Source: Siminovitchia terrae (GTDB lineage: Bacteria > Bacillota > Bacilli > Bacillales > Bacillaceae_C). Taken from it: a DNA stretch of 37,093 nt. Both the position numbers and the translations under genes were made by a program. Under the pieces are notes generated by a model, which worked only from the letters and a program-made list of their open reading frames with translations, was not told the DNA's origin and did no database searches. The DNA is taken from positions 1-37,093 of the forward strand of contig NZ_QYTW02000041.1 in NCBI RefSeq assembly GCF_003605405.2, given 5' to 3'. Shown here one piece after another: positions 1,075-19,249 of the stretch. Numbering within the stretch: the stretch's first letter is position 1; every line of letters begins with the position of its first letter.

Positions 1075-1080
1075 CCTTAT

Positions 1081-1575
1081 TCATCTCCAATCCTGAAGAT
1101 ACCTCTGTCTTACGGACTCAATATCCACCTTGGAATTTAAAAATATGTCTGCCATCAGTCCATTAATCAGGAAAATTTTCGAGACCCCTCCGCCAAGGGA
1201 AACGCCTCCAATTTCAATCGAATTGAACCTGTTTTTCATTTTTACTAATAGTGTGTTGGGATGTTCATAATACGGACAGTTTTCTTCCAATTGGAAGGAA
1301 ACCTCCATTTTTTCCTGCTTTGCAAGTTCAAAAGCATGCTTGATTCCAGGATTATCCGTTCCAAGCCCCAATAAGCCGCCCAAGATGGCCTTATTTGTTC
1401 CGTGGCCCTGGTATGTTTCCGAAAATGAATCGAAAAAAGTGATTTTCACAGATTCCGGGATCTCTCCAAATAAGTCATGCCCAAATTTCCCGATTGACAC
1501 AACCCCTGCTGTATGGGAGCTGGACGGTCCAACCATAATAGGTCCGATTATATCGAAGCAACTGTTAAAAACCAT
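1081..1575 (-). CDS. sdaAB: L-serine dehydratase beta subunit lacking the ACT domain
   Basis: Beta subunit (164 residues) that pairs with SdaAA. The N-terminal FDIIGPIMVGPSSSHTAG signature is typical of the serine-dehydratase beta domain, and the GGVSLGGGVSKI segment closes that domain near residue 130. The protein ends soon afterwards. B. subtilis SdaAB is about 220 residues and has a C-terminal ACT regulatory domain that is missing here. There is no disrupted ACT remnant, because sdaAA begins 6 nt after the stop. The enzyme may thus resemble two-subunit dehydratases without ACT, known from anaerobic Firmicutes. The glyA stop lies 16 nt upstream, so the genes are cotranscribed. Confidence 0.92.
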   Translation of the reverse strand: MVFNSCFDIIGPIMVGPSSSHTAGVVSIGKFGHDLFGEIPESVKITFFDSFSETYQGHGTNKAILGGLLGLGTDNPGIKHAFELAKQEKMEVSFQLEENCPYYEHPNTLLVKMKNRFNSIEIGGVSLGGGVSKIFLINGLMADIFLNSKVDIESVRQRYLQDWR

Positions 1576-2893: not shown

Positions 2894-2943
2894 CAAAAAA
2901 GGACAGGGGAAAGATAGATATACATCTACCTTCCTCTGTCCTG
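2894..2943 (-). terminator. Riboswitch expression-platform terminator before glyA
   Basis: On the minus strand AGGACAGAGGAAGGTAGA pairs with TCTATCTTTCCCCTGTCCT across a short loop and is followed by TTTTTT. The 5' arm (GGACAGAG) is also the 3' P1 strand of the second glycine aptamer. Glycine binding and termination would therefore be mutually exclusive, which is the usual ON arrangement. Confidence 0.85.
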
Positions 2944-3114
2944 TTACCTGAGAGTTTAACTTCAATCACGAAGTATTCCCCTTGGGTGGCCTTGAAAAGG
3001 CTCTCTCCAGAGACGCGTCCAAACGCGGTACTTTTACCTGAGAGATTGGATCCCATGGTTTTTTTGGGACTTGCTCCTTCGGTGCTAAACAAATAGTTTA
3101 GTCTCTCCCGCATT
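2934..3114 (-). promoter_or_regulatory. Tandem glycine riboswitch
   Basis: Two consecutive glycine aptamers read on the minus strand. Aptamer 1 has GCGGGAGAGACT, then CACCGAAGGAGCAAG, then TCTCAGGTAAAAG. Aptamer 2 has CTCTGGAGAGAGCC, then CACCCAAGGGGAA, then CTCTCAGGTAACAGGACAGAG. The linker is short, as in cooperative tandem glycine riboswitches. The terminator follows directly and glyA starts about 90 nt downstream. Glycine is expected to turn on glyA-sdaAB-sdaAA. Confidence 0.93.
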
Positions 3115-3142
3115 CGTCATTCGCAAGTATTTCATTTTTTAT

Positions 3143-5000: not shown

Positions 5001-6341
5001 TCACATTTCTACAATCTTAGGAATCCGCTTGATCAGACGTTTGATTGACTTATTCGATTCACGGAGTACAAGATCTTGATCAACAGTTTGGACAATTCCT
5101 TTTTCCAATACGATTTTTCCATTAATGATCGTTGAATCCACATCCGCCCTTGTCGCAGAATAGACGATTCTGGAAACCGGATCAACTTCGGCAGACGGGA
5201 ACGTATGGAATTTGTTCAAATCAAGAATGGCGACATCCGCTTTCTTTCCGACTTCAATGCTGCCTATTTGATCTTCTAGCCCGACAGCCCTTGCACCGCC
5301 AATTGTTGCCATTCTGAATATCGTTCTGGCATCCATGATCGTTGGTCCATGAATCGGCTTTTGAATCAGTGAGGCCATTCTCATTTCATTGAACATATCG
5401 AGATTATTATTGCAGGGGGCACCATCCGCTCCCAGGCTGATATGAGCCTGCAGATCAAGCATGTCAGGCACATCTGCTATTCCCGAAGCAAGTTTCATGT
5501 TGGAGCTCGGGCAATGACTCACCTTAATGCCACGTTCCTTGATGATCCGCTTTTCTTCATCATCCAGCCAGACACAATGTGCCAAAATCAATTTTTCGTT
5601 TGCAAGACCGATATGATCAAGATAAACGATATTTCTCATTCCTCTTTGCTGTTCAACAATTTCGATTTCCTTCCTGTTTTCCGACGCATGTGTGTGCACT
5701 TTTACATCATAAAGGTTGGAAAGATCACGCACCTCTGTCAACAGTTCTTCAGTACAGGAAACAACAAATCTTGGGCAAAAAGCATATTGGATCCGTCCGC
5801 CATCATATTGATTCCATTTTTCCAACAGGTCGACGCTCTGCTGGATCGACTTTGTCGTATCCTCCAGCAAGAGATCAGGGACGTCGTCTCCCATATCCAT
5901 CATTACTTTTCCTGCCAAGCAGCGTATACCGCTTTCGGCCATCGCCTGGAATGCAGAATTAGTGTGGTTGACAGTTTCCATGTCAACAATAGTTGTTGTG
6001 CCGCTTGAAATCAATTCCCCCAAACCCAGCATGGCTGAATAGTAGCTTGACTCTTCGTCATGTGATGCTTCCAACGGCCAAATCCTTTTTTGAAGCCAGT
6101 CCATCAGTTCTAGATCATCGGCTTGCCCTCGGAACAATGTTTGGCAAAGATGAATATGCGTTTGGATAAAACCAGGGATAACAGTTTTATTTTTTGCGTC
6201 AATTACTCGGTCAGCCTGATTTCCCAGATCCTTGCCAATACGTTCGATTTTATCATCCACCAATAGCAAATCACCTTGGACAATCTCCTCCTGGGCGTTC
6301 ATCGTTATAATTTGCGCATTTTTAATCAGTATGCTGGACAT
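5001..6341 (-). CDS. TrzA/SsnA-type metal-dependent aminohydrolase (deaminase)
   Basis: A 446-residue amidohydrolase-superfamily enzyme of the group that includes 5'-deoxyadenosine/S-adenosylhomocysteine deaminase, guanine deaminase and triazine hydrolases. It would hydrolyse an exocyclic C-N bond of a heterocycle. Metal ligands are visible: HIH in QTHIHLCQTLFRG, His in VHTHASENR, His in LILAHCVW and Asp in LGADGAPCNN. The LMDWLQKRIWPLE segment is typical of the 5'-deoxyadenosine deaminase-like clade. It is the last gene of the BMC operon, separated from the M20 gene by one 192-bp repeat copy. The substrate cannot be decided; relation to the pathway is inferred from orientation and function. 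Confidence 0.88.
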   Translation of the reverse strand: MSSILIKNAQIITMNAQEEIVQGDLLLVDDKIERIGKDLGNQADRVIDAKNKTVIPGFIQTHIHLCQTLFRGQADDLELMDWLQKRIWPLEASHDEESSYYSAMLGLGELISSGTTTIVDMETVNHTNSAFQAMAESGIRCLAGKVMMDMGDDVPDLLLEDTTKSIQQSVDLLEKWNQYDGGRIQYAFCPRFVVSCTEELLTEVRDLSNLYDVKVHTHASENRKEIEIVEQQRGMRNIVYLDHIGLANEKLILAHCVWLDDEEKRIIKERGIKVSHCPSSNMKLASGIADVPDMLDLQAHISLGADGAPCNNNLDMFNEMRMASLIQKPIHGPTIMDARTIFRMATIGGARAVGLEDQIGSIEVGKKADVAILDLNKFHTFPSAEVDPVSRIVYSATRADVDSTIINGKIVLEKGIVQTVDQDLVLRESNKSIKRLIKRIPKIVEM

Positions 6342-6368
6342 GCGTTTTACCTCTCTCTCTTTATATAA

Positions 6369-6560
6369 TCAAATGCGCCTTGGCGTATTTGCGCCCAGAT
6401 TTTATCGAGCTCCTCTCGATAAATTCCCTCTGAAAATCTGTGGCATCCGCCGGAGGCTTTAACTTAGTTCGGCCGGGGTTTGCCCCTCACTGAATGGAAT
6501 ACGAATATGTTTTCTTCTCACCACTTACAGAAGTGGGAGACTTCTGCTGAATGAAGTTAA
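6369..6560 (+). repeat. 192-bp structured repeat, copy 1
   Basis: First of five related copies, all in the same orientation. From left to right it contains a CAAATGCG-CCTTGG-CGTATTTG hairpin, then CAGATTTT...AAAATCTG around TTTATCGAG...CTCGATAAA. A terminal pair, TTAACTT...CAG and CTGAATGAAGTTAA, frames a CCACTT-ACAG-AAGTGG hairpin. This copy is the most diverged (TTAGTTCGG in place of TTATTCAG, and one mismatch in the second stem). Its right end supplies the stop codon of the M20 gene. No target duplication is visible at the borders. Confidence 0.85.
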
Positions 6561-7696
6561 AAAGCCTTGGTTCCCTCTTTTGAAAATTTCACCGCCAACT
6601 CTTTATAAAAGTCAAAAGACCTTAAATATGCCCGAATATCAACGTATTCATTCGGCTGATGGGCGAGGCTTTCATCGCCAGGCCCGTAAATGAGAGTTGG
6701 TATCCGGCTGTCAGGATTCAATACAGCTGCATCCGTATAATAGGAAACTCCGTGCAAGGAATTCTGTTTATTTAAGTCCATTGCTAGGCGTATCACCTTG
6801 TCCGATTCATTCGTTAAAATAGCTGGCCGGTCCAATTGTAGATGGACAGAAAAGTCCGGTGACCGATCTGCTGAAAACAGTTCATTTAAATTGTTTTTGA
6901 TTTCTGTGAGTAATTGTTGGTGGGATTGAGGAGGAACAGATCTAATATCCACAGACATGCTGCAGCGGTCAGGAATGACATTCGTTTGGACTCCTCCATT
7001 TATTTTTGTTACTGCTAAACTGCTTTCGCCAAGTGGCTCCGTGGATACTTTCCACTTTTTATTTAAACTATCCAGCATATGAATAACTTTGCTCATCCAT
7101 TCTACTGCATTGACCCCCTTATCCGGCATGGAGCCGTGCGCTGTTTTTCCTAGCGTGACAATTTCTATCCACAAGGCGCCTTTATGCCCAATAACGACTT
7201 TTTCATTAGTTGGTTCGCCGATTACTAGAGCCTCCACATTTTCCATCGTCTGTCCTTCCAAATATGTCCGGGCTCCGCAGCTGTCAACTTCTTCGCCTGC
7301 AGTTGCCAGGAAAACAATTTCCTTTGAAAGCTTTCTTCCTTCCTTAAACAAAGATTCAATAGCCAAGTACATGGCCGCAAGACCGCTTTTCATATCGGAT
7401 GCACCACGTCCATATAGCTTTTCTCCCACTATTTCACCGGAAAAAGGAGAGTACATCCATGGTTGCTCCCCTGGTAATACCGTATCCATATGCCCGCAAA
7501 AGACCAATTTCTCATCGCCTTCACCCTTTAAGCGGATTTCAAAATTGCTTCTCCCCGAATCAATTTGGGTTATCTTGTAGGGGATGCCGGCTGTTTTGCA
7601 TCTTTCAGCCAGCATTTCCGATACTCTATCTTCATTTCCAGGTGGGTTGGAGCTGTCAATTTGAATCATTTGCTGCAAAAAACGGACCGCATCCAT
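6557..7696 (-). CDS. M20-family metallohydrolase (ArgE/DapE-like)
   Basis: A 379-residue zinc-dependent amide hydrolase. Metal-site motifs are present: CGHMDTV, GRGASDMKSG, TAGEEVDSCGA (catalytic Glu and ligand), IGEPTNEKV, and a late His in SLAHQPNEY. The family includes deacylases such as ArgE/DapE as well as N-carbamoyl-amino-acid hydrolases and allantoate amidohydrolases, so cleavage of a carbamoyl or acyl amide in the BMC pathway is plausible but unproven. The start codon abuts the DUF1989 stop (TGA-ATG), implying translational coupling. The TAA stop lies inside the edge of repeat copy 1, so the native C-terminus may have been altered by that insertion. Confidence 0.88.
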   Translation of the reverse strand: MDAVRFLQQMIQIDSSNPPGNEDRVSEMLAERCKTAGIPYKITQIDSGRSNFEIRLKGEGDEKLVFCGHMDTVLPGEQPWMYSPFSGEIVGEKLYGRGASDMKSGLAAMYLAIESLFKEGRKLSKEIVFLATAGEEVDSCGARTYLEGQTMENVEALVIGEPTNEKVVIGHKGALWIEIVTLGKTAHGSMPDKGVNAVEWMSKVIHMLDSLNKKWKVSTEPLGESSLAVTKINGGVQTNVIPDRCSMSVDIRSVPPQSHQQLLTEIKNNLNELFSADRSPDFSVHLQLDRPAILTNESDKVIRLAMDLNKQNSLHGVSYYTDAAVLNPDSRIPTLIYGPGDESLAHQPNEYVDIRAYLRSFDFYKELAVKFSKEGTKAF

Positions 7697-8320
7697 TCAA
7701 TTCGCCTCCACAATTTGCATTTTAAGAGACGTAACTTTAAACCCGTTTACGGGAGCCATATCCTGAGAGCAGGTTGAGCAGGCAATGACAACCTCTTCAA
7801 GCGCCCTTAGACGGACATAGTCGCCGGGCTTGGATAACGGTTCATGGATTTCATAATCCCCTTGATCATCCAATACATTATTCATAAATAAGTTGATTGG
7901 ATCAGGAACCGATTCATTGCCTAAACCGAACTCCCTTAGTGCTTTATTCAAGTTATCATGGCAATTAGGATGGTCTTCCATGCCAAAGTCATTTTTATAG
8001 CGGTAATAGTCACATGCAGGGAAAAAGAAATCATGTTTTCCGACTGTATCTTCAACAAACGTCATTAGCGGGCGGCGTCTGTTACTGTATAAAGCATCCC
8101 CTGGCTTCAAGCGAATACTGCTGAGGGAAGCCCTCATATGAACAGGTGAGACAAATTCCTTTGGGTCATTTCTGTTGAAACAAACAAAGTCACCGACCTG
8201 CTTTCCTTCCATATCGATGATAATCAGTTCTTCCCCTGGTTTTAACAGTGCTCCCCTGCCTTCATACGGAGGAATAATTATTTCTTCCCTGATTCGTTCC
8301 TGCGCTGAATTCACCACCAA
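7697..8320 (-). CDS. DUF1989 / urea carboxylase-associated family protein
   Basis: A 207-residue protein of the DUF1989 family. Members in guanidine-degradation operons form the carboxyguanidine deiminase (CgdAB); others accompany urea carboxylase. Family hallmarks visible here: VSPVHMRAS, CDYYRYK, HPNCHDNLNKAL, DPINLFMN, KPGDYVRLRA and the Cys-rich CSTCSQDMAPVNG. Only one paralogue is present, whereas CgdA and CgdB normally occur as a pair, and no urea/guanidine carboxylase is nearby. The start is TTG at 8320 or the next GTGs (8317, 8314); a GAGGTG lies upstream. It is coupled to the downstream M20 gene. It probably hydrolyses a C-N bond in the BMC pathway. Confidence 0.85.
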   Translation of the reverse strand: MVVNSAQERIREEIIIPPYEGRGALLKPGEELIIIDMEGKQVGDFVCFNRNDPKEFVSPVHMRASLSSIRLKPGDALYSNRRRPLMTFVEDTVGKHDFFFPACDYYRYKNDFGMEDHPNCHDNLNKALREFGLGNESVPDPINLFMNNVLDDQGDYEIHEPLSKPGDYVRLRALEEVVIACSTCSQDMAPVNGFKVTSLKMQIVEAN

Positions 8321-8342
8321 AAAACACCTCTTCCCTGGTTGT

Positions 8343-9026
8343 TTAATCGATAAATAAAGCTACAGCTCTGATTGGCGATCCTGTCCCTTCCCTGATCTTG
8401 AGCGGCAAACCGAAATATAGGAAACGCATTCCGGCAACCTGATCTAAGTTGATAAGGTTTTCCGTATTGGATATTCCGTACTCCCGGCAGACTAAATGGC
8501 CTGAATACCGTTCATCCTTCGGATTGTCAACAGAAGGAGAATCAATGCCAATATTGACTACACCTCTCTCAGCAAGCCATTTAGCCCCTTCGTAATTAAG
8601 GCCTGTATAGCGCGTTAGCCACTCATCTGTTCCAAACTTTCGGTTATAATGACCTGTATACAAAAGGACAATGTCTCCTTTTTCAAGAACTTGCTGTGAT
8701 TTTTGTAGTGCAGACTCCAGATCACTGGGCGTGATATAGCCATCCGGAGATACATGCGACACATCCAGACAGACAGCAGGACCATAATAATATTCAAGAG
8801 GCATATCGTTTATATATTTGCCGTTTGGATCGAATTCGTACGTAGCGTCGGTATGTGTGCCGCCATGCTCGTTAATTAAGATATTATTTGTGGCAAATTC
8901 GAAACCTATTTTTTTCAAACTTTCTTCATGAGAAATGTTCTGCCATATATGTGTGGGCTGATGCAGTGGAAATATCGGCATGCCCTGATAAATTTCCTGT
9001 GAAAGGTCAATCAGTCTGATACCCAT
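8343..9026 (-). CDS. Cyclase/kynurenine-formamidase-like metal-dependent hydrolase (PF04199)
   Basis: About 227 residues counted from the ATG at 9026 (MGIRLIDLSQEIYQGM), chosen because AAGGAGG lies 9 nt upstream. The longer frame would run back into the adenine deaminase gene. The family opens cyclic or formyl amides (KynB, isatin hydrolase and relatives) using a metal bound by an HxGTHxDxxxH motif. Here the motif reads HGGTHTDATYEF, so the last His appears replaced by Glu, which is unusual. The later segments GDIVLLYTGHY and NIGIDSPSVDNP fit the family. It sits 16 nt after the adenine deaminase stop. It probably acts on an intermediate of the BMC pathway; substrate unknown. Confidence 0.87.
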   Translation of the reverse strand: MGIRLIDLSQEIYQGMPIFPLHQPTHIWQNISHEESLKKIGFEFATNNILINEHGGTHTDATYEFDPNGKYINDMPLEYYYGPAVCLDVSHVSPDGYITPSDLESALQKSQQVLEKGDIVLLYTGHYNRKFGTDEWLTRYTGLNYEGAKWLAERGVVNIGIDSPSVDNPKDERYSGHLVCREYGISNTENLINLDQVAGMRFLYFGLPLKIREGTGSPIRAVALFID

Positions 9027-9042
9027 TTCAGCTGCCTCCTTC

Positions 9043-10854
9043 CTATTCCACAACCGGGGAAAGTACTTCAAATTTATTTACATCGATTAACCCCATGTCC
9101 GTAATCTTCCATTCCGGGCTGGTGACAAGTGACCAGAAGGACAAATGCATGAATGGTACAGGTATCCCGCATCCCAGCTCGGATTCCGCTAGTCTTGTCA
9201 GTTCTGTGATTTTTTCACTCACTTCTTGTCCGCTCAATTCATCCGTAATTAAGCCCCCAACTCTCAACGGAAGGTCTCCGACTACTTTGCCGTCTTTAAT
9301 CATCGCGATTCCTCCATCCATCGAGATGACCCTGTTTACGGCCGTCACCATGTCTTCATAATTGGTGCCTGTAACAATAATATTGTGTGTATCATGAGCC
9401 ACACTTTCCGCGATTGCCCCACTTTGAAGCTTAAAGCCATTCAAAAATGCTTTTCCAATATTTCCAGTCCTTCCATGTCTTTCAACAACAATGAGTGGGA
9501 GAACATCCTGTTGAAGGCACGGTTGAACAACACCGTTGGAAACGTTCAGATTGAATTCCTGCGCACTTGTCAGGTTTTGGAACGGAATAGCAACTATTGA
9601 GCGGACGCGAGCACGGCTTCCATTCGCTTTAATGTGAAGGTCTTCCACCTTGACATGTCCTCTTTTAACAGACTTCTTAACACTTTCAGGATAAGTATAT
9701 GAACCAAAGTCAATCGTCAATTCTCCTCTTTCCGCTGCCAGATTTCCGCTGAGATAAACCTGGTCAATGATCATTTCATTCAAGTTGCTGATAATCGCAA
9801 TATTAGCACGCTTGCCCGGAGCCAAGATTCCGACATCTTTAAATCCAAAGTGAGTTGCCGGATTGATTGTCCCCATTTGGATCGCTTCGACCGGGTCTAC
9901 TCCTTGGGCGATTGTACGTCTAATAATGTCATTCATATGACCGTCCTTCAGCAAATCCTCCGGAACCATGTCATCCGAGACAAGGATCGCACGTCTTGAA
10001 TCCATTCCTTCTTCAGTGATAGCCCGGATACATTCGGCCATATTTCTTTGGGAAGAGCCTTCCCTCATAAACACACTGACTCCGTAGCGAAGCTTTTCCA
10101 TCATTTCTTCTTTTGTTGTTGTTTCGTGGCATGATACATGCCCGCCTCCGCTGATGATATGCGCAGCGAGCTCTTTTCCGAATAAAGCTGGAGCATTTCC
10201 TTCAACCGTTTTGCCGATACTTTCAGCATAGGATACTGCCGCAACGAGATCATCGATCAGTTCAGGTGCATTCTCATAAACTGGTCCGATATTACTAAAG
10301 CTTTGAATCTCTCCGATTCCCTGAACATAAGGATCATTTAGTAGCTCTTCCATGTGGGAGGAATTCACATCAAAGCCGGCGGTTTCAAGCCCGGGAGCAT
10401 CCGGTACAGCACAAGGTACGGTAAAATAAATCTGATTTGGCAAGGTCTTGGCTTCCTTAATCATTTCCTGCATACCGTGAACTCCCAAAACGTTCCCAAT
10501 TTCATGCGGGTCAGCTACGATAGTAGTGGTACCTGTAGGTATGGATAAACGAGAAAATTCCGTACAAGTTAACATCGCGCTCTCAAAGTGCATGTGTGAA
10601 TCAATAAAACCGGGCGATATAAACTTTCCTTTAACAGTTTCAACTTTCGTCCTGCTGCCGATCAAAGCGCTAGCGTCTCCAACCATCAGTATGTACTCGC
10701 CTTTTATTGCCACATCCGCTTCATATATTTCCCTTGTAACCGTATTGATCACATAACCGTCCTTTAGTACAATATCCGCATACTGATTGGAATCTAGGAG
10801 GACATCGATCAGCTTTCGATACTGAACGGCCTTCTTTATATTTTCAGCCTTCAT
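9043..10854 (-). CDS. adeC: Adenine deaminase
   Basis: A 603-residue member of the adenine deaminase family (adenine to hypoxanthine plus ammonia), slightly longer than B. subtilis AdeC (about 577). Motifs: FIDSHMHFESAML, TTTIVADPHEIGNVLG, GGGHVSCHETTTKEEM, SVFMREGSS, and the C-terminal HDTHNIIVTGTN and DGGIAMIKDGKVVGDLPLRVGG. The N-terminus has an extra amphipathic stretch (ENIKKAVQYRKLIDVLLDS), which could be an encapsulation helix, although AdeC proteins often begin with a helix. It follows the BMC-P gene by 26 nt. Its presence among shell genes argues for a purine-related or similar amino-heterocycle substrate. Confidence 0.92.
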   Translation of the reverse strand: MKAENIKKAVQYRKLIDVLLDSNQYADIVLKDGYVINTVTREIYEADVAIKGEYILMVGDASALIGSRTKVETVKGKFISPGFIDSHMHFESAMLTCTEFSRLSIPTGTTTIVADPHEIGNVLGVHGMQEMIKEAKTLPNQIYFTVPCAVPDAPGLETAGFDVNSSHMEELLNDPYVQGIGEIQSFSNIGPVYENAPELIDDLVAAVSYAESIGKTVEGNAPALFGKELAAHIISGGGHVSCHETTTKEEMMEKLRYGVSVFMREGSSQRNMAECIRAITEEGMDSRRAILVSDDMVPEDLLKDGHMNDIIRRTIAQGVDPVEAIQMGTINPATHFGFKDVGILAPGKRANIAIISNLNEMIIDQVYLSGNLAAERGELTIDFGSYTYPESVKKSVKRGHVKVEDLHIKANGSRARVRSIVAIPFQNLTSAQEFNLNVSNGVVQPCLQQDVLPLIVVERHGRTGNIGKAFLNGFKLQSGAIAESVAHDTHNIIVTGTNYEDMVTAVNRVISMDGGIAMIKDGKVVGDLPLRVGGLITDELSGQEVSEKITELTRLAESELGCGIPVPFMHLSFWSLVTSPEWKITDMGLIDVNKFEVLSPVVE

Positions 10855-10880
10855 ATTTCACTCTCCACCCTTCTCCTCTC

Positions 10881-11144
10881 TCATTCCAAACTATCTATAA
10901 TTCCTACTATCGCTGCATCCACAGGAGCTTCCTTGTTCTGAATGGCTCTTGATGCCATACTTCCCTTGACAAAGATGACTTTTTCGCCGATTCCTGCGCC
11001 GACTGTATCAACGGTAATAATGGGCTGAGAATCCAATGGGATGCCATCTAGGCCGATTGGCTGTGTAACCAGTAACTTTGTCCCTACTAACCTCTCATCT
11101 TTTCTAGTTGCTGTGACTCTCCCAACTACGATTCCCATTTCCAT
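10881..11144 (-). CDS. BMC-P vertex pentamer shell protein (EutN/CcmL family)
   Basis: About 87 residues from the ATG at 11144 (MEMGIVVGRV), which has GGGAG 7 nt upstream. EutN/CcmL proteins form the pentamers that cap the vertices of microcompartment shells. Signatures: the start MGIVVGRVTATRKDERLVGTK, the central VDTVGAGIGEKVIFVKGS, and the end VDAAIVGIIDSLE. The gene starts inside the 3' end of the flavoprotein-like gene (41-nt overlap), so the two are probably translationally coupled. It is the only pentamer gene in the locus. Together with three BMC-H genes, it shows that a closed shell can be built. Confidence 0.95.
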   Translation of the reverse strand: MEMGIVVGRVTATRKDERLVGTKLLVTQPIGLDGIPLDSQPIITVDTVGAGIGEKVIFVKGSMASRAIQNKEAPVDAAIVGIIDSLE

Positions 11145-11913
11145 AGAGTTCTCCCGCCCTTTCTTCGCAGATTTCAATTCGATATTCCTGCGCAGCATCT
11201 CGTGCCAACGGTGTGATGATTATTCCCTGTCCTACCTGAATGAACCGTTCTCCTGCTTCTGCATGTCGTTTAATCATTTCAGCAGTTATGACCTGTTTGT
11301 CTTTTTTCAAAGAGGCTGGTTTAAAATATGTTTGAAGTTGTTCAGCGTTTTTGATCAACTGAAGCCCGAAGCCTCCCAGCTGCTGAAGTCGTTTTTTCAT
11401 TTCATGTTTTAAAAAAGGGGAACCTTGGTTCAAACCCGCCTCCTTCCAAATGAAATGGTAAGGATCTGCCCCGGCAGAGTTTGCACTAACTTTCTTTCCA
11501 CTCATCAATGCCCATAATAAGAGTCTGATAGGAGTCTGTTTATCATTGAAATTTAATAAGTCCGATACTGTAGAAAAAGGCAAGACCGGGATGTAAAAAT
11601 AGTCCACTTTCTCTTTCCGCCTTTCTGCCTCCTCCAATGAGATCCAATCATCGACTCCTGCTTTGCAGGCAAGGGCTGAAAGATTTAGATGATGATCAAG
11701 AACCCGCTGATCGGGGCATACCTGAATTCTTAAATGTCTGCCGTAACTCTCCTTTAATTCTTTTAAACCTTTTAAGCCTTCATCCATCCCATTCATATGA
11801 TAGAAAAGGAGAGCAAGCACTGTTTTGGGGCGTGCCTCAATGCTGCTCATATTTCTGTAAAACAGCTCATGCAAAGTCGACTCTGCCAAAGCGCTTTGCC
11901 GGTTTACTAGCAC
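11104..11913 (-). CDS. BMC-associated flavoprotein-like protein (HFCD-type, divergent)
   Basis: A 269-residue protein with a GTG start preceded by AAGG. The middle (YFYIPVLPFSTVSDLLNF and LLLWALMSGKKVSA) resembles the P-x-S-x-x-T...ALxxGKxV layout of flavin-binding Cys-decarboxylase-like (PF02441) proteins that accompany several BMC types. The C-terminal GIIITPLARDAAQEY matches the TPxARD-type tail of BMC-associated accessory proteins. Typical flavin-contact residues are poorly conserved, so it may be a degenerate or structural member. The gene lies between a BMC-H gene (2-nt gap) and the BMC-P gene (overlap). The family call is an inference; UbiX is encoded separately nearby. Confidence 0.65.
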   Translation of the reverse strand: MLVNRQSALAESTLHELFYRNMSSIEARPKTVLALLFYHMNGMDEGLKGLKELKESYGRHLRIQVCPDQRVLDHHLNLSALACKAGVDDWISLEEAERRKEKVDYFYIPVLPFSTVSDLLNFNDKQTPIRLLLWALMSGKKVSANSAGADPYHFIWKEAGLNQGSPFLKHEMKKRLQQLGGFGLQLIKNAEQLQTYFKPASLKKDKQVITAEMIKRHAEAGERFIQVGQGIIITPLARDAAQEYRIEICEERAGELYGNGNRSWESHSN

Positions 11914-11915
11914 CC

Positions 11916-12197
11916 TTATTCACCTTTTGAAAGAAGCGCACGCTCAACCTCACTGTGCGGTCTTGGAATAACATGGACACTAACGAGCTCCCCTACACGG
12001 CTTGCTGCGTCCGCACCTGCATCCGTCGCAGCTTTGACCGCACCTACATCTCCTCGTACCATAACTGTTACGAGTCCAAATCCTACTTTTTCATAACCGC
12101 AAATTTCTACGTTTGCTGCCTTTACCATCGCATCTGCCGCTTCAACCGCACCTACCAGCCCCTTTGTTTCCACCAATCCTAAAGCTTCTCCACCCAT
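11916..12197 (-). CDS. BMC-H hexameric shell protein
   Basis: A 93-residue single-BMC-domain protein, the facet tile of microcompartments. The start [20 protein letters not shown], the middle [20 protein letters not shown] and the end [10 protein letters not shown] are textbook PduA/EutM-type segments. The pore-loop region (YEKVGFGL) is glycine-containing, as in small-molecule-permeable tiles. It follows the tailed BMC-H gene and precedes the flavoprotein-like gene in the same transcript. Confidence in the family is very high; the transported metabolite is unknown. Confidence 0.97.
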
Positions 12198-12225
12198 ATG
12201 AAAACCCTCCTATATTTAAAATTAT

Positions 12226-12696
12226 TTATGCTTTCTTGTCTCCGTCCCCTTTTCTAGCTTCACCCTTTGTATCAGCTTCACTGACTGTATCTTTATCTTT
12301 TGACTGGACCTTCCTTGATTTTGAGCTCCCCGCAGACTTACTTATTTTCTTTTTCAATTCAGCAGGTGGCCGGGCTTCATCTTGAGATTTCTTTTCAGTG
12401 CTTTCTCTAATCAAGAATTTACTCAACAACTTTTGACTTACTTCTGAGTGAGCTCTTGGAATAACATCAGTTGAAATGATCTTTCCGATCAATTCTCCCT
12501 GCTTTCTGCCTGCGTCCACGGCTGACTTGACGGCTGCAACATCGCCGGAAAGATGTATGGTTACCCCAACATATCCGCCGACTCCTATCACCTTTTCCAT
12601 ACCAATAATCTCCACATCTGCCGCCTTCACCGCAGCGTCTGCCGCCGAAATTGCTGTCGTATAACCAACAGTCTCAATCAGTCCTAATGCAAACAA
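12226..12696 (-). CDS. BMC-H shell protein with a charged, disordered C-terminal tail
   Basis: A 156-residue protein. Residues 1-95 form a BMC domain (FALGLIETVGYTTAISAAD; GVGGYVGVTIHLSGDVAAVK; STDVIPRAHSEV). Residues about 100-156 form a Lys/Ser/Glu/Asp-rich, probably unstructured tail (for example KKKISKSAGSSKSRKVQSK). Such tails occur in PduK-like and some CcmK-like tiles and may bind cargo or sit on one face of the shell. TTG start, with AAAGGAGG 9 nt upstream. It sits between the 311-residue gene and a standard BMC-H gene. The composition of the tail differs from the rest of the operon. Confidence 0.94.
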   Translation of the reverse strand: MFALGLIETVGYTTAISAADAAVKAADVEIIGMEKVIGVGGYVGVTIHLSGDVAAVKSAVDAGRKQGELIGKIISTDVIPRAHSEVSQKLLSKFLIRESTEKKSQDEARPPAELKKKISKSAGSSKSRKVQSKDKDTVSEADTKGEARKGDGDKKA

Positions 12697-12744
12697 TCAC
12701 CCCATCCTCCTTTCCGGACTAAATTGTTATCTTGTCTGCGCTTT

Positions 12745-13680
12745 TCAGCTTATCAGCCTGCCTGCTTCTTTCTTCAGCTCCGTAACAAGCTCGGAAATGA
12801 CATGATAGTTTCCTTTCAATAACAGGTACTTTTCCTCAATTTCATAGTCTATTCCAGTATTCTCAAAGTTTTTCAGCAAGGAATCCATCAACACAATACT
12901 GGTGTAATACGGTACTCCTTCCAAGATGGCAATCGCATCGACCGATAGGCTGATATTGAGCTGTTTCGTCAACCATGGGCTTGGAGATATGATTGTATAT
13001 GATTCAAAATGTTTTAAAGCGCGCCTGTTAAGCTTTTGATAGATTTCATTCATGACCCTTTCAAGCCTGTCGACATCATCATCATAAAATTCAGCAGTAA
13101 AAGGTGCATCACCGCCCCTTTCCCATGATATGTAAAACTTGATGTCCTGGTTGTCACGAATGATTTCATTGACCACCAAAAGATAACTGGGCAGACATTC
13201 AGGCATTTTAACTGCACCTATCGCCGCTCTATTTAACGGCCGCTGGAAGCTTCCCATCAGTTTCTGTGAAAGAGTCGGGAAAAACCATACACAGCCGCCG
13301 TTTCTAGTATGCCCGATGATTTTGGCAGATTTCGTTTGCTTGTGATCGCCTCTTGCTGGTTCAGCGCTTTTTCTTGATACCTTCCCTTGTGCCATGGAAA
13401 TCGATCTGAGCCTTGATATGGACTCCTCATTGAAATGTTTATCCGATAATCCATTTGGTCGGCTTTGAACTGCAGCTTTTTTATTGCCAATAGATGACGG
13501 CCTTGATTCTTCCAGCACGGAAAGCCTTTGCTCTTGTTTTAACTGCTGGTAGTTTGGCCTTTTAATATCACTGAGAGATACGTTGGCAGGCGGCCTGTTC
13601 TTGTTATTCACGCTATTCGTCATGATCATTTTATTTCCTTGAAGGACCTCCTGCACTACCTGCTTCATCACATCTGACAA
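12745..13680 (-). CDS. Unrecognised BMC-locus protein: encapsulation-like N-helix, linker, possible divergent tandem BMC fold
   Basis: A 311-residue protein that I do not recognise by family. The TTG start has AAGGAGG upstream. The N-terminus (SDVMKQVVQEVLQG) has the amphipathic pattern of BMC encapsulation peptides. Residues about 20-125 are Ser/Arg/Lys/Gln-rich and probably disordered. The C-terminal half has two segments whose spacing suggests degenerate BMC domains: RAAIGAVKMPECLPSYLLVV...DDDVDRLERVMNEI and VDAIAILEGVPYYTSIVLMD...YHVISELVTELKKEAG. It could therefore be a divergent BMC-T-like tile or a scaffold that ties cargo to the shell. Both readings are inference. It is flanked by BMC-H genes, with repeat copy 2 directly upstream. 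Confidence 0.7.
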   Translation of the reverse strand: MSDVMKQVVQEVLQGNKMIMTNSVNNKNRPPANVSLSDIKRPNYQQLKQEQRLSVLEESRPSSIGNKKAAVQSRPNGLSDKHFNEESISRLRSISMAQGKVSRKSAEPARGDHKQTKSAKIIGHTRNGGCVWFFPTLSQKLMGSFQRPLNRAAIGAVKMPECLPSYLLVVNEIIRDNQDIKFYISWERGGDAPFTAEFYDDDVDRLERVMNEIYQKLNRRALKHFESYTIISPSPWLTKQLNISLSVDAIAILEGVPYYTSIVLMDSLLKNFENTGIDYEIEEKYLLLKGNYHVISELVTELKKEAGRLIS

Positions 13681-13696
13681 CTTTTACACCTCCTTA

Positions 13697-13889
13697 TCAA
13701 ATGCGCCTTGGCGTATTTGCGCCCAGATTTTATCGAGCTTCGCTCGATAAATTTCCTCTGAAAATCTGTGGCATCCGCCGGAGGCTTTAACTTTATTCAG
13801 CCGGAGTTTGAACCCCCACTGAATGGAATACCAATAGGCATTCATCTCACCACTTACTGAAGTCGGAGACTTCTGCTGAATGGAGTTAA
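13697..13889 (+). repeat. 192-bp structured repeat, copy 2
   Basis: Fills the gap between a BMC-H gene and the 311-residue gene. Same order of hairpins as copy 1, with the second stem loop reading GAGC-TTC-GCTC. Its right end (GGAGTTAA) contains the stop codon of the BMC-H gene; its left end lies just before the AAGGAGG of the next gene. Confidence 0.9.
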
Positions 13890-14149
13890 AGAATCTTTTT
13901 TAGCTCAGGATGTGGTCGTGGAATGACATTTGATGAAATCAGCTCTCCTCCGGCAATTTCATGGGCAAGCCGTCCAATTTCCACGGCGGATTTTACATCC
14001 GCAACATCTCCTTCTACAATGACAGTTACCAGGCCGGACCCGACCCTTTTCAAGTCAACCAATGAAATATTCGCTGCTTTTGCCATTGAATCCAGCGCCT
14101 CTATCGCTGCCGTCAGTCCCCTTGTTTCCACTAATCCTATTGCACTCAT
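13886..14149 (-). CDS. BMC-H hexameric shell protein
   Basis: An 87-residue single BMC-domain tile. Diagnostic segments: [40 protein letters not shown] and [14 protein letters not shown]. It is the first shell gene in transcription order and follows ubiD after a 180-nt gap that holds a large inverted repeat. Its TAA stop is provided by the edge of repeat copy 2, so the last residues may have been set by that insertion. Sequence differences from the other two BMC-H proteins suggest mixed hexamer types in one shell. Confidence 0.96.
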
Positions 14150-14187
14150 CCAGTCTCACCCGCCTTTGCCTCATGGCTTATAGTGCG

Positions 14188-14326
14188 TGTTCAAAAGTTG
14201 CCAAAAGCAATAAAGTTGAGGCGGCTTGTTTTATGCAGCGGATTGTATGCTTTTTGATACATGAATAGTACAGAAACAAGCCAACGAAGAAAGTTTGCCT
14301 CTTATTATTTGGTGACTTTTTGAACA
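14188..14326. repeat. Long imperfect inverted repeat between ubiD and a BMC-H gene
   Basis: Outer arms TGTTCAAAA (14188-14196) and TTTTGAACA (14318-14326) and inner arms GGCTTGTTT (14223-14231) and AAACAAGCC (14274-14282) are perfect. Partly matching sequence between them (GCCAAAAGCAATAA with TTATTATTTGGTG) extends the stem. It could be a small MITE-like element or an mRNA structure separating the enzyme and shell parts of the operon. Confidence 0.7.
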
Positions 14327-14331
14327 TCCTC

Positions 14332-15678
14332 TTATAAATAATCATTCAAATCAATATCAATAGGGACAGACGTTCTTCTGAACATCTCTTTTTCGGAGAG
14401 CGGGTATGTTGCATCTATCCCCATTTTGGCAGATACGCCTCGTAAATTATGTGATGATTCCAAGGGAGAGCCTTTTGCTCCAGGAATAATGAACACATCT
14501 TGATCGGCCTGGCAGCGAGTAGCAATCGCCCACTCGACATCCTGAGGATTAAAAATATCGACATCGTCATCAACAACAACGACATGTTTCAAATCTTTAT
14601 CACTTGCAAATGCGGCCATCGCAGTTTGTTTAGCATCGCCTTCCGTCCTCTTTTCGATTTGAATAATAGCATGCAGGCGTGCTGCAGCAGCCATCGTCAC
14701 ATGGACCGCTTTTACATTTTCTACTGTTTGTCTAACAGTGCTTAACAGCGTCATTTCACGAATAAGGCACATCGGTAGTCTTTCTTCCGAACTTGAGGGG
14801 AAAATGGTTTGGGAAATAGGATGATTCTGGTAGGTAATGGCCGTCATTTCAACAATAGGCTGAGGTTCGTTCCCGCCATAATAACCACCGAGCTCTCCGA
14901 AAGCTCCTTCCGGATCTCTTTCATACGGAAGTATTTTTCCTTCCAAAACGATTTCGGCCTCTGCAAGAACTTCAATATCCACAGTCTTGCATTGAACCAC
15001 ATCCAGTGGTTGTCCGAGAAGCGCTCCGGACACATCCAATTTATCCGCATGAAATAATTGTGTACTGACCTGTGATGCCAACACAACTGCTGGAACTACT
15101 CCAAACATAACAGCGATTTCCATTGGTTCTCCTCTTTCTTCAAAATACGCGAATTGCCGATTCAGCTCGGGAGAAGTTATAACGATATTCGTTCTGTTTC
15201 CACCTATAAACTTCATCCTCCGAATGGATGTATACCTTTTCTTTCCTTCCAGATCTTTTACAACCAGAACGCCTGAAACATAATAGGCTCCGCAGTCTTC
15301 TGCATGAAAAATCGGTATTGGAAAAAAATCGTCTAAATCGAACGGAGGCAAAACAACGTTTTCGTGAACAGGTCCTGTAGGAACGAGCCTTGTAGGAAGA
15401 GGATTAATGATGGCATCAACCATCTTTGGAAGCAATTCCGTCTTATCGACACCCATGCTGTCAGCCATAAACTTCCGACTTCCCCCTAAGCCTGCGACCA
15501 TGGGAACAGAATAGCCTTGAACATTCTCAAACAGAACAGGCTGCTCCCCTTTCATGGCTCTGACGACAGCCCCCAGTTCATATTCGGGGCTGACCTCTTT
15601 TTGGATACGGTGCAACAATCCACGCTTGTCCCAATCAGTAAGTAGCTCTCTCAAATTAAGGGGATTCATTTTTCTCAC
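14332..15678 (-). CDS. ubiD: UbiD-family prenylated-FMN-dependent decarboxylase
   Basis: A 448-residue UbiD-like (de)carboxylase, which removes CO2 from aromatic, heteroaromatic or alpha,beta-unsaturated acids using prenylated FMN. Visible features: N-terminal helix LNLRELLTDWDKRG, SIRRMKFIGGNRTNIVI carrying the cofactor-contacting Arg, and ERDPEGAFGELGGYYGG carrying the two catalytic glutamates of the E-R-E triad. The GTG start at 15678 (or ATG at 15669) overlaps the end of ubiX, so the two are coupled. The length fits single-chain UbiD enzymes, with no BsdD-like third subunit. The substrate is unknown; the neighbours suggest an N-heterocyclic carboxylate. Confidence 0.93.
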   Translation of the reverse strand: MRKMNPLNLRELLTDWDKRGLLHRIQKEVSPEYELGAVVRAMKGEQPVLFENVQGYSVPMVAGLGGSRKFMADSMGVDKTELLPKMVDAIINPLPTRLVPTGPVHENVVLPPFDLDDFFPIPIFHAEDCGAYYVSGVLVVKDLEGKKRYTSIRRMKFIGGNRTNIVITSPELNRQFAYFEERGEPMEIAVMFGVVPAVVLASQVSTQLFHADKLDVSGALLGQPLDVVQCKTVDIEVLAEAEIVLEGKILPYERDPEGAFGELGGYYGGNEPQPIVEMTAITYQNHPISQTIFPSSSEERLPMCLIREMTLLSTVRQTVENVKAVHVTMAAAARLHAIIQIEKRTEGDAKQTAMAAFASDKDLKHVVVVDDDVDIFNPQDVEWAIATRCQADQDVFIIPGAKGSPLESSHNLRGVSAKMGIDATYPLSEKEMFRRTSVPIDIDLNDYL

Positions 15679-16222
15679 CCCATCTCTCCATCAATTCATG
15701 TTCAATATCCAATTCATCCAGTATTCTGGCAACGATAAAATTCACCAATTCCCAAATTTCTGTTGGCCGGTGATAAAAACCTGGACTTGCTGGTAAAATC
15801 GAAACACCTGCTTCAGCCAAAGTTGTCATGTTCCGTAAATGGATCACATGAAAAGGAGCCTCCCTTGGCACAATGACAAGGTTTCGTCTTTCCTTCATAA
15901 CCACGCTCGCAGATCTGGTCAATAGAGTATCCCCCACTCCATTGGCAATTGCGCCTAATGAATTCATTGAGCAAGGAACAATGACCATCCCATCCGTCTT
16001 AAAGGAACCGCTCGCAATAGAAGCAAACAAATTCTGATTATGATGGATTACAGCATACTCTTTTAAATCTTCCATTTTTATGCCGCATTCGAATTGCAAT
16101 ACCTTTACTCCCGTTTCGGTAGCAACTACGTGGGTTTCAACTCCCAATTGATGAAGCGCACGGATCAATGTATACCCATACAATGATCCGCTTGCTCCCG
16201 TTATGCCGACGATGATTCTCAT
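15656..16222 (-). CDS. ubiX: UbiX-family flavin prenyltransferase
   Basis: About 188 residues from the ATG at 16222 (MRIIVGITGASG), where family homology begins and GGGAG lies upstream. UbiX transfers a dimethylallyl group to FMN to make the cofactor required by UbiD. Signatures: GITGASGSLYGYTLIRAL, VIVPCSMNSLGAIANGVGD, and the C-terminal LVIVPREAPFHVIHLRNM...LPASPGFYHRPTE. The ubiX-ubiD overlap supports a dedicated pair rather than the ubiquinone pathway, which Bacillaceae lack. Confidence 0.95.
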   Translation of the reverse strand: MRIIVGITGASGSLYGYTLIRALHQLGVETHVVATETGVKVLQFECGIKMEDLKEYAVIHHNQNLFASIASGSFKTDGMVIVPCSMNSLGAIANGVGDTLLTRSASVVMKERRNLVIVPREAPFHVIHLRNMTTLAEAGVSILPASPGFYHRPTEIWELVNFIVARILDELDIEHELMERWGEKNESP

Positions 16223-16244
16223 TTTCCAGCTCCCGTCGTCACGA

Positions 16245-16838
16245 CTAAACCGTCTGTGCGTTTTGGGAGAATTTCTTTTTAGCGGCATCCATATATTCAT
16301 CTGTCGTCATCACTTCACCGAAAATTCCAATATCTCGAAGACCTCCACGATGCATATCCTCATCCTGGGATGCAGTTGAGTCGGACAAAGCGATCACGTT
16401 ATATCCGTGATACAATGCATCTGAAGCCGTGCTTCTTACGCAAACATTTGTCCAAACTCCTGTAAGGACAACTGTATCAACTTTTTCTTCCCTCAAAAAC
16501 AAGTCGAAGTCTGTATAGCTGAACGCACTGTGGCGACGTTTTTGTACAACATAATCCCCTTTGTCCTCCTCGGGCTGAAGTTCCTCAATAAACTCCGATC
16601 CCCATGTACCCTTGATCGCATGGACCGGCCTTACCCTGAAATCCGCATCATTTTTACGATGAGCTTCTTGAACATGAACAACCTGAATTCCATAATTATG
16701 GCAAAAATCAATAGCCTCTCTAATTTTTGGAACAATTTTTTCTCCATTTTCACATCTCAATGCAGCCTTCTCACCAATAAAATCATTCAGCATGTCAATG
16801 ATGACCAATGCATGCTTTTCACCTTTCAGCTTTGTCAT
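16245..16838 (-). CDS. Isochorismatase-like cysteine hydrolase (amidase)
   Basis: About 197 residues. The ATG at 16838 is preferred over an upstream TTG. Family members cleave amides with an Asp-Lys-Cys triad: here Asp in ALVIIDMLNDF, Lys in VVQKRRHSAF and Cys in GVWTNVCVRSTASDAL. Relatives include nicotinamidase, ureidoacrylate amidohydrolase (RutB), maleamate amidohydrolase and N-carbamoylsarcosine amidohydrolase. Next to a hydantoinase-like gene, an N-carbamoyl amidase role (releasing CO2 and ammonia) is the attractive reading, but sequence alone does not decide it. It lies between the hydantoinase-like gene and ubiX in the same operon. Confidence 0.9.
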   Translation of the reverse strand: MTKLKGEKHALVIIDMLNDFIGEKAALRCENGEKIVPKIREAIDFCHNYGIQVVHVQEAHRKNDADFRVRPVHAIKGTWGSEFIEELQPEEDKGDYVVQKRRHSAFSYTDFDLFLREEKVDTVVLTGVWTNVCVRSTASDALYHGYNVIALSDSTASQDEDMHRGGLRDIGIFGEVMTTDEYMDAAKKKFSQNAQTV

Positions 16839-16855
16839 AAATATCAATTCCTTTC

Positions 16856-18349
16856 CTAGTTTGTAATCAAGTCTCTTCTCAAGGCTTTTTCTATGCGGGG
16901 GCTAGCTTCAGCCTCTTTCGCCCTTTCTTCATAAGTTTCATATTTTATGACGCGCTCAAGACTTTGGATGCTCTGCCTGTTGACAAATTGCCCGTATCCG
17001 GCAGCCCCGGTGATACCACCGTTATCCTCGTCGTAAACGACTTGGCCTCGGACAATTGTTTGAATCGGCTTTCCTTTAAGCTTCAAACCATGGAGCGGGT
17101 TATATTTTGCCATAGACTCCGTCTTTTGCTCATCAATGGTGTACTCGCGTTCCAAGTCGATGACTGTGAAGTCGGCGTCGCTCCCAATCTCCATGGCACC
17201 TTTTTTCGGATATATCCCGAAATGAATCGCTGCATTCCTACTTGTTACCTCAACAAATCGTGACAGTGAAAGACGGCCTTTATTCAGTCCTTCGCTGACA
17301 AGGATCGGAACCATTGTTTCCACTCCTGGGATTCCAGGGAAGCTGTTCCAAATCGTTGAATCCTGCGCGTCTTTTTCGGTTGGAATTTCATATGGAGCAT
17401 GGTCCGTTCCAACAAAGTCAATTGTTCCATCGGCTAGAGCCTGCCAGTGAACAATATTATCTTCCTTTTCCCGTAGTGGAGGAGCGATTTTAGCAAATGT
17501 TCCCCGTTCTGACATGGAGTCTTCCGCATTAAGCATCAAATAATGAGGACATGTTTCTGCAGTTACTTTCACCCCGCGCTTTTTGGCTTCCCTTACAAGT
17601 TCCACACCTTCTTTCGTACTCATGTGGACGACGTGTACGCGAGCTCCAGTTGCTTCTGCAAAGCTGATAATCAACTGGATTGCTGCTTTTTCCGCAAGAG
17701 CCATTCTAGCTTCCGCCCATGCTGGACCGTCAAGACGACCTTCTTTTTTCAGTTTTTCAGAGTAGAAAGTGCAAATATCATAATTTTCCGCGTGGACTCC
17801 GATCGGCATTCCTGTCGGAGCGATATGGCTGAAGATTTCAAGCATCTCTGCATCTGAAACTTTTGGGAAGGTAGGCACTGAAGGAGTCATGTATACCTTA
17901 AAAGCAACGACACCTTCATCTATTTGAGGCTGGATATTATCCAGCAGCCCTTCACGAACGTCTTCTCCGGTCATTCCGCCCCAGAAAGCAAAGTCTATGT
18001 ATGCCTGATCTTTGAGAGGAGCGAGCTTTTTATGGAAGCTTTCAGCATCACGTACGGAAGGTTTACTGCAGCATGGCATGTCTATATGAGTAGTCACTCC
18101 GCCCGCAGCGGCTGATCTCGTTCCCGTTGTGAATGTTTCACGATGCGTAAATCCGGGATCCATAAAATGTGTATGAGGGTCAATACATCCCGGGACCACC
18201 AGGTTCTCTTTCATATCAATGACCCTGTCAGCGGATAAACCATTTAAAGCTGAGATAAACCCGACAATCTTTCCATTATCAACCAGAATGTTTGTTTTTA
18301 CCTTACGATCCCCTTGAGGAATCAGCGCGTTTTTTAAAATTAAATCCAT
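16856..18349 (-). CDS. Cyclic amidohydrolase (dihydroorotase/allantoinase/hydantoinase-like)
   Basis: About 497 residues from the ATG at 18349 (MDLILKNALIPQG), preceded by GGGAGAG. This superfamily opens cyclic ureides (hydantoin, allantoin, dihydropyrimidines). Binuclear metal ligands are visible: HTH in DPHTHFMDPGF, the carboxylated Lys in AFKVYMTPS, His in GVHAENYD, His in VHVVHMST and Asp in GTDHAPYE. AAGGVTTHIDMP is allantoinase-like. It is the first gene of the BMC operon. Repeat copy 3 separates it from the upstream leader. With the amidase next to it, it forms a ring-opening plus carbamoyl-cleaving pair (inference). Confidence 0.9.
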   Translation of the reverse strand: MDLILKNALIPQGDRKVKTNILVDNGKIVGFISALNGLSADRVIDMKENLVVPGCIDPHTHFMDPGFTHRETFTTGTRSAAAGGVTTHIDMPCCSKPSVRDAESFHKKLAPLKDQAYIDFAFWGGMTGEDVREGLLDNIQPQIDEGVVAFKVYMTPSVPTFPKVSDAEMLEIFSHIAPTGMPIGVHAENYDICTFYSEKLKKEGRLDGPAWAEARMALAEKAAIQLIISFAEATGARVHVVHMSTKEGVELVREAKKRGVKVTAETCPHYLMLNAEDSMSERGTFAKIAPPLREKEDNIVHWQALADGTIDFVGTDHAPYEIPTEKDAQDSTIWNSFPGIPGVETMVPILVSEGLNKGRLSLSRFVEVTSRNAAIHFGIYPKKGAMEIGSDADFTVIDLEREYTIDEQKTESMAKYNPLHGLKLKGKPIQTIVRGQVVYDEDNGGITGAAGYGQFVNRQSIQSLERVIKYETYEERAKEAEASPRIEKALRRDLITN

Positions 18350-19225: not shown

Positions 19226-19249
19226 TTTGATAACCTCCTTGCACTTATA

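Follow-up and report, generated by a model that had tools for sequence, protein, structure and literature searches.

A BUF1/Xau-type microcompartment locus of Siminovitchia terrae and its probable role in xanthine degradation

What does a bacterial microcompartment (BMC) enclose when its shell genes are accompanied by none of the usual aldehyde enzymes? The question is raised by a minus-strand gene run, from position 18349 down to 5001, on a contig of Siminovitchia terrae (NZ_QYTW02000041.1); the window analysed here is this entire contig, 37,093 bases from a 5.3 Mb genome (68 contigs) that is most closely related to Siminovitchia species and Bacillus norwichensis. The locus is a well-supported member of the published BUF1/Xau type, and the compartment type itself is not new. 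The chemistry that fits it best is most likely the old clostridial (Barker–Rabinowitz) route from xanthine to glycine, and we put the probability that this BUF1/Xau microcompartment runs that pathway at about 0.85. What is added here to the published type is a sharper, assayable enzyme-to-step map.

The run comprises 15 genes, with families confirmed by Pfam and NCBIfam, or assigned by predicted fold where so marked. In the order of transcription, they are (ORF, open reading frame):

16856..18349, minus strand: cyclic amidohydrolase (allantoinase/hydantoinase-like), start at the ATG at residue 24 of the longest ORF
16245..16847, minus strand: isochorismatase-family amidase (PF00857)
15656..16300, minus strand: UbiX flavin prenyltransferase (NF004685, 230 bits, cut-off 188), likely start at residue 27 (MRIIVGITG)
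14332..15678, minus strand: UbiD decarboxylase (TIGR00148, 316.3 bits, cut-off 244.85)
13886..14149, minus strand: BMC-H shell protein 3 (PF00936, 1e-26)
12745..13680, minus strand: BMC-T-like shell protein, 311 aa (by predicted fold)
12226..12696, minus strand: BMC-H shell protein 2, with a Lys-rich C-terminal tail (PF00936, 9e-23)
11916..12197, minus strand: BMC-H shell protein 1 (PF00936, 1e-29)
11104..11913, minus strand: flavoprotein-fold protein, 269 aa, with a C-terminal ITPLARD motif (by predicted fold)
10881..11144, minus strand: BMC-P vertex protein (PF03319, 2.7e-27), likely start at residue 19 of the longest ORF, where the best-matching PF03319 stretch begins
9043..10854, minus strand: AdeC-like (adenine-deaminase-family) protein (TIGR01178, 465.8 bits, cut-off 472.5)
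8343..9071, minus strand: PF04199 cyclase/amidohydrolase (4e-37)
7697..8320, minus strand: DUF1989 protein (PF09347, 6e-53)
6557..7696, minus strand: M20 deacylase (TIGR01910, 263.7 bits, cut-off 217.6)
5001..6341, minus strand: TRZ/SsnA-type aminohydrolase (NF005557, "5'-deoxyadenosine deaminase", 722 bits, cut-off 522)

Three BMC-H genes and one BMC-P gene thus stand with enzyme genes in a single collinear run, as the original prediction for this DNA had described. Its statement that the aldehyde core is lacking holds as well: Pfam matched no aldehyde dehydrogenase, alcohol dehydrogenase or phosphotransacylase among the 20 proteins encoded in 5001-23234, and aldehyde dehydrogenase (one query) was found in none of the 80 related loci introduced below. 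In this the window differs from the aldehyde metabolosomes (EUT, PDU, GRM), with which it shares the shell families and, through the 269-aa protein, a partial TIGR02536 match (2.2e-5) far below the cut-off of that model.

The original prediction mentioned proposed purine and xanthine types and left the type of the locus open; it can now be named. In the accessible text of Axen 2014 (PMC4207490), BUF loci combine shell genes with amidohydrolases, a deaminase, a carboxy-lyase, an isochorismatase and a formiminotransferase and lack the aldehyde core. The accessible part of Ravcheev 2019 (PMC6620236) predicts xanthine utilisation (Xau) and names Bacillus fordii DSM 16014 (Siminovitchia fordii), a member of the same genus as the window, and the Sutter 2021 survey, as far as its text was available, equates BUF1 with potential xanthine degradation. 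The S. fordii locus matches the window gene for gene, and the window likewise holds amidohydrolases, a deaminase, a UbiD carboxy-lyase and an isochorismatase. It departs from the type in that its genome has no formiminotransferase, xanthine dehydrogenase does not adjoin the locus, and DUF1989 and M20 genes are present. The missing formiminotransferase does not decide membership, since the accessible part of Ravcheev 2019 counts two members without this gene in the cluster. As to the clostridial xanthinase pathway (Rabinowitz, Barker), the same intermediates and kinds of reaction are expected here, the Bacilli variant differing by the absence of formiminotransferase; according to the available text of a 2025 paper citing Tong et al. 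(2023), a xanthinase gene cluster has recently been identified in Clostridia and Bacilli.

To place the window among related loci, we used UbiD to search 398 genomes from the phylum, 57 of which had a match at E ≤1e-60, and scanned named genomes, retaining the best 80 of 471 matches (the 80 named loci; 69 of these stretches are at least 21 kb long). Stretches and genomes are given below by our L and G numbers where they have to be told apart. Counted within each examined stretch, with hidden Markov models built from the same loci or with single queries, UbiD is present in 80 loci, BMC-H in 78, UbiX in 77, AdeC in 76, BMC-P in 76, the cyclase in 70, the isochorismatase in 66 (six by a distant paralog only, at 256-265 bits), DUF1989 in 60, the cyclic amidohydrolase in 60, SsnA in 49 (two of 50 SsnA matches being weak), M20 in 43, and formiminotransferase in eight. 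All 76 loci with BMC-P carry an AdeC-like gene, and 49 of those 76 carry SsnA.

The comparison of gene order in relatives that the original prediction had proposed bears out the unity of the locus. In five of six Siminovitchia genomes, our own included, the locus genes stand in the same order (split over two contig ends in G003); BMC-P is missing from the gene maps of G001 and G003, yet it was found in L116, which is G001. Within the genus, AdeC, the cyclase, UbiX and BMC-H1 are 94-99% identical, the 269-aa protein 74-90%, and BMC-H2 77-92%, with MenE outside the locus at 78-90%. The locus is missing from the sixth genome, G004, where the space from GlyA to the flanking S9 peptidase is taken up by other ORFs (435 aa, 313 aa, and a pair of roughly 100 aa each). 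Shell genes accompany 78 of the 80 loci, both exceptions being Thermosyntropha (L184, L194).

The neighbourhoods of related loci point to purines. In 56 of the 80 loci, a xanthine dehydrogenase subunit, a xanthine/uracil-type permease or a nucleoside hydrolase lies within about 10 kb (single-query matches at E ≤1e-5, with Pfam applied to examples). Pfam shows a divergent xanthine dehydrogenase set with a xanthine/uracil-type permease at a Cytobacillus locus (L133) and a nucleoside hydrolase at a Paenibacillus locus (L158), and the Carboxydothermus locus has dehydrogenase subunits, formiminotransferase, cyclodeaminase and a permease. Our own genome has three MoCoBD_1 genes, none in the window, and one xanthine dehydrogenase set there, which is 65-70% identical to the locus-linked Cytobacillus set, has a purine riboswitch in front.

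Apart from the window, 26 locus stretches were scanned with Rfam, and 13 of them contain purine riboswitches (L220, whose genome lacks the locus, was excluded; L223 is a stretch beyond L165 in the same genome). They precede dehydrogenase sets in eight cases, SsnA in L122 and L128, a 454-aa gene followed by SsnA in L150, and the cyclic amidohydrolase in the Paenibacillus stretches L157, L162 and L223. In these Paenibacillus riboswitches, position 51 is G and J3-1 contains an insertion, the marks of xanthine-II riboswitches, and the cyclic amidohydrolase behind them is 65% identical to its homolog in the window. According to the accessible text of PMC9295807, xanthine-II binds xanthine with a KD of about 36.5 µM and was tested with the "allB" RNA of Paenibacillus sp. 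DMB5; the cyclic amidohydrolase of that strain (L160) lies outside the examined stretch, and its identity with that "allB" is thus only a presumption. In this way, the published BUF/Xau shell loci are linked with two further published lines, the long-known xanthine pathway of clostridia and the xanthine-II riboswitch. The word "riboswitch" is absent from Ravcheev 2019 and the 2021 catalog, and "microcompartment" from the riboswitch paper PMC9295807, though other papers may make the link.

The classical route runs from xanthine through 4-ureido-5-imidazolecarboxylate, 4-amino-5-imidazolecarboxylate, 4-aminoimidazole, 4-imidazolone and formiminoglycine to glycine. In our scheme, the TRZ/SsnA deaminase and the unlinked, riboswitch-preceded xanthine dehydrogenase would turn purines to xanthine outside the shell. 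The cyclic amidohydrolase would act as the xanthinase, opening the six-membered ring; the isochorismatase-family protein, as 4-ureido-5-imidazolecarboxylate amidohydrolase, would remove the ureido group; UbiD, with prenylated flavin mononucleotide from UbiX, would decarboxylate 4-amino-5-imidazolecarboxylate; the AdeC-like enzyme would deaminate 4-aminoimidazole; and the PF04199 enzyme, as 4-imidazolonase, would convert 4-imidazolone to formiminoglycine. In the Bacilli variant, the DUF1989 protein might then deiminate formiminoglycine to formylglycine, and the M20 protein, as an N-formylglycine deformylase, might release formate and glycine. The shell would most likely confine the slow first step (kcat of xanthinase 0.1 per second in the available text of the 2025 paper) plus the unstable 4-aminoimidazole and imidazolone.

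We place the cyclic amidohydrolase first and the PF04199 enzyme after the deaminase chiefly because the operon order coincides with the classical step order: ring opening, ureido removal, decarboxylation, the shell genes, deamination, second ring opening, deimination and deformylation. The riboswitches agree with this placement, and so does the neighbourhood in Thermosyntropha (contig C8 of the shell-less genome G298), where a PF04199 homolog is directly followed by formiminotransferase and then by an ORF that, judged by eye, is cyclodeaminase-like.

The cyclic amidohydrolase exceeds the cut-off of the NCBIfam allantoinase model TIGR03178 (369.3 bits, cut-off 357.85), its closest solved structures being the hydantoinase 1gkr and the allantoinase 3hm7. 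The isochorismatase-family amidase has 3hb7 as its top solved chain (257.8 bits), followed by N-carbamoylsarcosine amidase, biuret hydrolase and RutB chains. For UbiD, the top solved chains are 6h6v and 6h6x, presumably furandicarboxylate decarboxylases, and R153, E257 and E262, to which we ascribe catalytic roles, are invariant (seven homologs aligned). Kynurenine formamidase and isatin hydrolase are among the closest PDB matches of the PF04199 protein.

The AdeC-like protein differs from its paralogs at two positions. All 76 locus rows, from 75 loci and the window, have Asn at position 220, which we take to be a metal ligand, and Cys at position 242; the 12 paralogs examined all have His at the former, and 11 of them have Asp or Glu at the latter. 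The paralogs come from seven of ten genomes checked, and rows shorter than 400 aa (L173, and in L181 and L193 a truncated second copy) were excluded; our own genome has three further Adenine_deam_C genes. Because Asn replaces His at position 220, the AdeC of the locus is probably an aminoimidazole deaminase.

At the end of the pathway, Bacilli and Clostridia differ. DUF1989 alone occurs in 60 of the 80 loci, formiminotransferase alone in eight, both in none and neither in 12, several of which are incomplete stretches; M20 occurs in 43, always with DUF1989, and DUF1989 is found without M20 in 17. The place that formiminotransferase takes in clostridial loci is occupied in Bacilli loci by DUF1989, in many cases together with M20. 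Genome-wide, the formiminotransferase domain PF07837 is absent from 10 of 10 Bacilli genomes (nine with the locus, our own included, and G004) and present in five of five clostridial locus-bearing genomes and one of two Thermosyntropha genomes. The clostridial result fits the classical pathway, which needs formiminotransferase, and the pattern suggests a folate-independent pathway end in Bacilli. We infer the deiminase role of DUF1989 and the deformylase role of M20 from the chemistry; proteins of the former family presumably include carboxyguanidine deiminases.

Glycine could leave through serine to pyruvate by way of genes at the other end of the run:

2934..3120, minus strand: tandem glycine riboswitch before GlyA (RF00504, 67.7 and 49.4 bits)
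1592..2842, minus strand: GlyA serine hydroxymethyltransferase (PF00464), possible outlet from glycine to serine
181..1575, minus strand: SdaAA and SdaAB L-serine dehydratase (labelled from the translations), possible outlet from serine to pyruvate

In the genus, as well as in Thermoflavimicrobium daqui, GlyA-SdaA adjoins the locus, GlyA stands by the locus in L153, and according to BLAST, SdaAA/SdaAB adjoin GlyA in G001, G003, G004, G005 and L153.

The shell appears complete, as BMC-H, BMC-T and BMC-P proteins are all present. The three BMC-H genes are the sole PF00936 matches in the genome (68 contigs). The 12745..13680 ORF, which matched nothing in Pfam or NCBIfam, is, by its predicted fold, a degenerate BMC-T shell protein. 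Its AlphaFold2 model (mean predicted local distance difference test, pLDDT, 76.2; blocks of residues 121-310 mostly above 85) has an N-terminal short helix, a low-confidence stretch with RPNYQ and a tandem BMC fold from about residue 120. All 39 Foldseek matches with E ≤0.001 are shell chains (EtuB, PduB, EutL, CsoS1D), with EtuB and PduB first (best E 1.5e-7); the template-modelling scores are moderate (about 0.42 when normalised to the query length, 0.54 when normalised to the target length). Its RxNYQ motif is conserved without exception at R41, N43, Y44 and Q45 in all 40 aligned rows, which represent the window plus 39 of 64 loci. The 269-aa protein, aligned over 42 rows (the window and 41 of 75 loci), gave a model with pLDDT 88.4 whose matches, at E of 2e-5 or weaker, are mostly UbiX, PPC decarboxylase and DmrB and include a small number of unrelated folds; the protein fits the "flavoprotein-like" protein of the original prediction.

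These details allow a bolder, joint proposal: a folate-independent Bacilli variant with DUF1989 as formiminoglycine deiminase and M20 as N-formylglycine deformylase, a shell that shields air-labile intermediates, an Asn-type AdeC that is a new aminoimidazole deaminase, and a BMC-T protein that anchors enzymes by RxNYQ. We regard this combination as tentative, its chances falling somewhat short of even. 4-Aminoimidazole and imidazolone are air-labile, and these Bacilli are largely aerobic; if the proposal is true, the shell makes a route familiar from strict anaerobes available to such bacteria. The enzyme map as a whole proposes specific functions, open to assay, for DUF1989, M20 and an adenine-deaminase paralog, and RxNYQ is a candidate motif for cargo loading. 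A literature search found no paper joining microcompartments with formiminoglycine or with cyanuric acid hydrolase.

Several points weigh against the xanthine pathway in a shell, or against single steps of it. What the analysis demonstrates is the gene content, its conservation, the purine surroundings, the predicted BMC-T fold and Asn in the place of His in AdeC; the enzyme-to-step assignments, the encapsulation and its reason are inferred throughout, and the enzyme activities are predicted. No purine riboswitch was found at the window and S. fordii loci. Uricase, considered as a complement to the locus since in the genus it occurs only in G004, shows no wider association: it is missing in 48 of the 50 genomes with the locus and also in 50 of 55 locus-less ones (among 60 relatives, our own genome included), and being scarce with and without the locus, it lends no support. 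The AdeC-like protein falls below the adenine deaminase cut-off only narrowly, and G298, the sole Thermosyntropha genome checked for AdeC, has His-type AdeC only. The SsnA-like protein passes the 5'-deoxyadenosine deaminase model and fails the guanine deaminase model TIGR02967 (269.7 bits, cut-off 375.4), which makes guanine as its substrate a guess only. The alternation of DUF1989 and formiminotransferase corresponds to one change on the UbiD tree, and thus to a lineage difference, not repeated replacement; it is not independent evidence. GlyA-SdaA with its glycine riboswitch also occurs in G004 without the locus, and is therefore kept as a possible outlet only, not as part of the system. Both Thermosyntropha genomes have no PF00936 gene genome-wide and keep UbiD, isochorismatase and cyclic amidohydrolase, so that the shell is not strictly needed. 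Finally, the accessible part of Ravcheev 2019 assigns the steps otherwise, with the ring openers swapped and another aminohydrolase at the fifth step.

That last scheme keeps compartment and substrate: PF04199 would open xanthine, the cyclic amidohydrolase imidazolone, the SsnA-like protein would deaminate aminoimidazole, and formiminoglycine would be handled outside by an unlinked enzyme. It draws on roles predicted from homologs of Alkaliphilus proteins (we mapped the locus tags to families by gene order in the related Alkaliphilus locus L178), and the missing formiminotransferase of Bacillus fordii is explained, in the accessible part of Ravcheev 2019, as such an outside step. We consider this version improbable: SsnA accompanies just 49 of the 76 loci with AdeC, and the Asn220 pattern marks AdeC itself; a purine riboswitch stands in front of SsnA in two loci, and a xanthine-II-like one in front of the cyclic amidohydrolase in three; the PF04199 homolog stands beside formiminotransferase in a shell-less genome; and none of the 10 Bacilli genomes has a formiminotransferase domain. 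The shell-less Thermosyntropha, with part of the pathway and no BMC genes, might instead suggest that the xanthine enzymes are cytosolic and the linked shell genes serve another purpose. We give this reading equally little credence, given that UbiD and AdeC are separated by shell genes in loci of Bacilli, Clostridia, one Acidaminococcales metagenome-assembled genome (MAG) and two Pseudomonadota records (L169, L170), that the locus holds the only PF00936 genes of our genome, and that the one query for aldehyde dehydrogenase found none in the 80 loci.

A different substrate altogether, i.e., another cyclic ureide or N-heteroaromatic acid (allantoin, hydantoin, pyrimidine, imidazolecarboxylate), would accord with the allantoinase score of the cyclic amidohydrolase and with the breadth of the UbiD and isochorismatase families. 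It is the least likely of the readings and very improbable in view of the purine-type neighbours and riboswitches and of the formiminotransferase in clostridial loci, which fits a route from imidazole to formiminoglycine. The original prediction of a microcompartment for a nitrogen heterocycle is supported, its unstable carboxylate probably being decarboxylated, while the hydantoin, creatinine, pyrimidine and allantoin that it listed as candidates find no support beside related loci that adjoin xanthine dehydrogenase, xanthine/uracil-type permease, nucleoside hydrolase and purine riboswitches.

Some further observations concern the distribution of the locus and the rest of the window. Thermosyntropha offers a natural shell-less comparison. 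On the UbiD tree (FastTree, with a long-branch warning), L169, L170 and L175 (Brenneria sp. 4F2, a Rhodospirillales MAG and the Acidaminococcales MAG, respectively) cluster together, which suggests transfer across phyla. L166 (Pseudomonas sp. ISL-84) and L146 (Paenibacillus sp. FSL R5-0490) have Cytobacillus-type loci and fall among Cytobacillus; the record names or assemblies may be wrong.

An ABC transporter at 20434-23234, considered as a purine importer, also occurs in the locus-less G004 and is not tied to the locus. Directly upstream of the locus lies an MpsC-like gene (PF10057, 18863-19225), with a homolog in 52 of the 80 loci. An intergenic repeat of about 208 nt with palindromic parts occurs in four copies, at 6368-6575, 13696-13903, 18414-18621 and 20161-20368 (63, 100, 67 and 92% to the reference copy, respectively); the gap between M20 and SsnA measures 215 bases in the window as against about 20 in S. 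fortis (L037), and at least that copy looks inserted. At 34828-37093, a dense minus-strand tRNA cluster is accompanied by a Bacillaceae-1 RNA and a 5S rRNA interrupted by the contig end.

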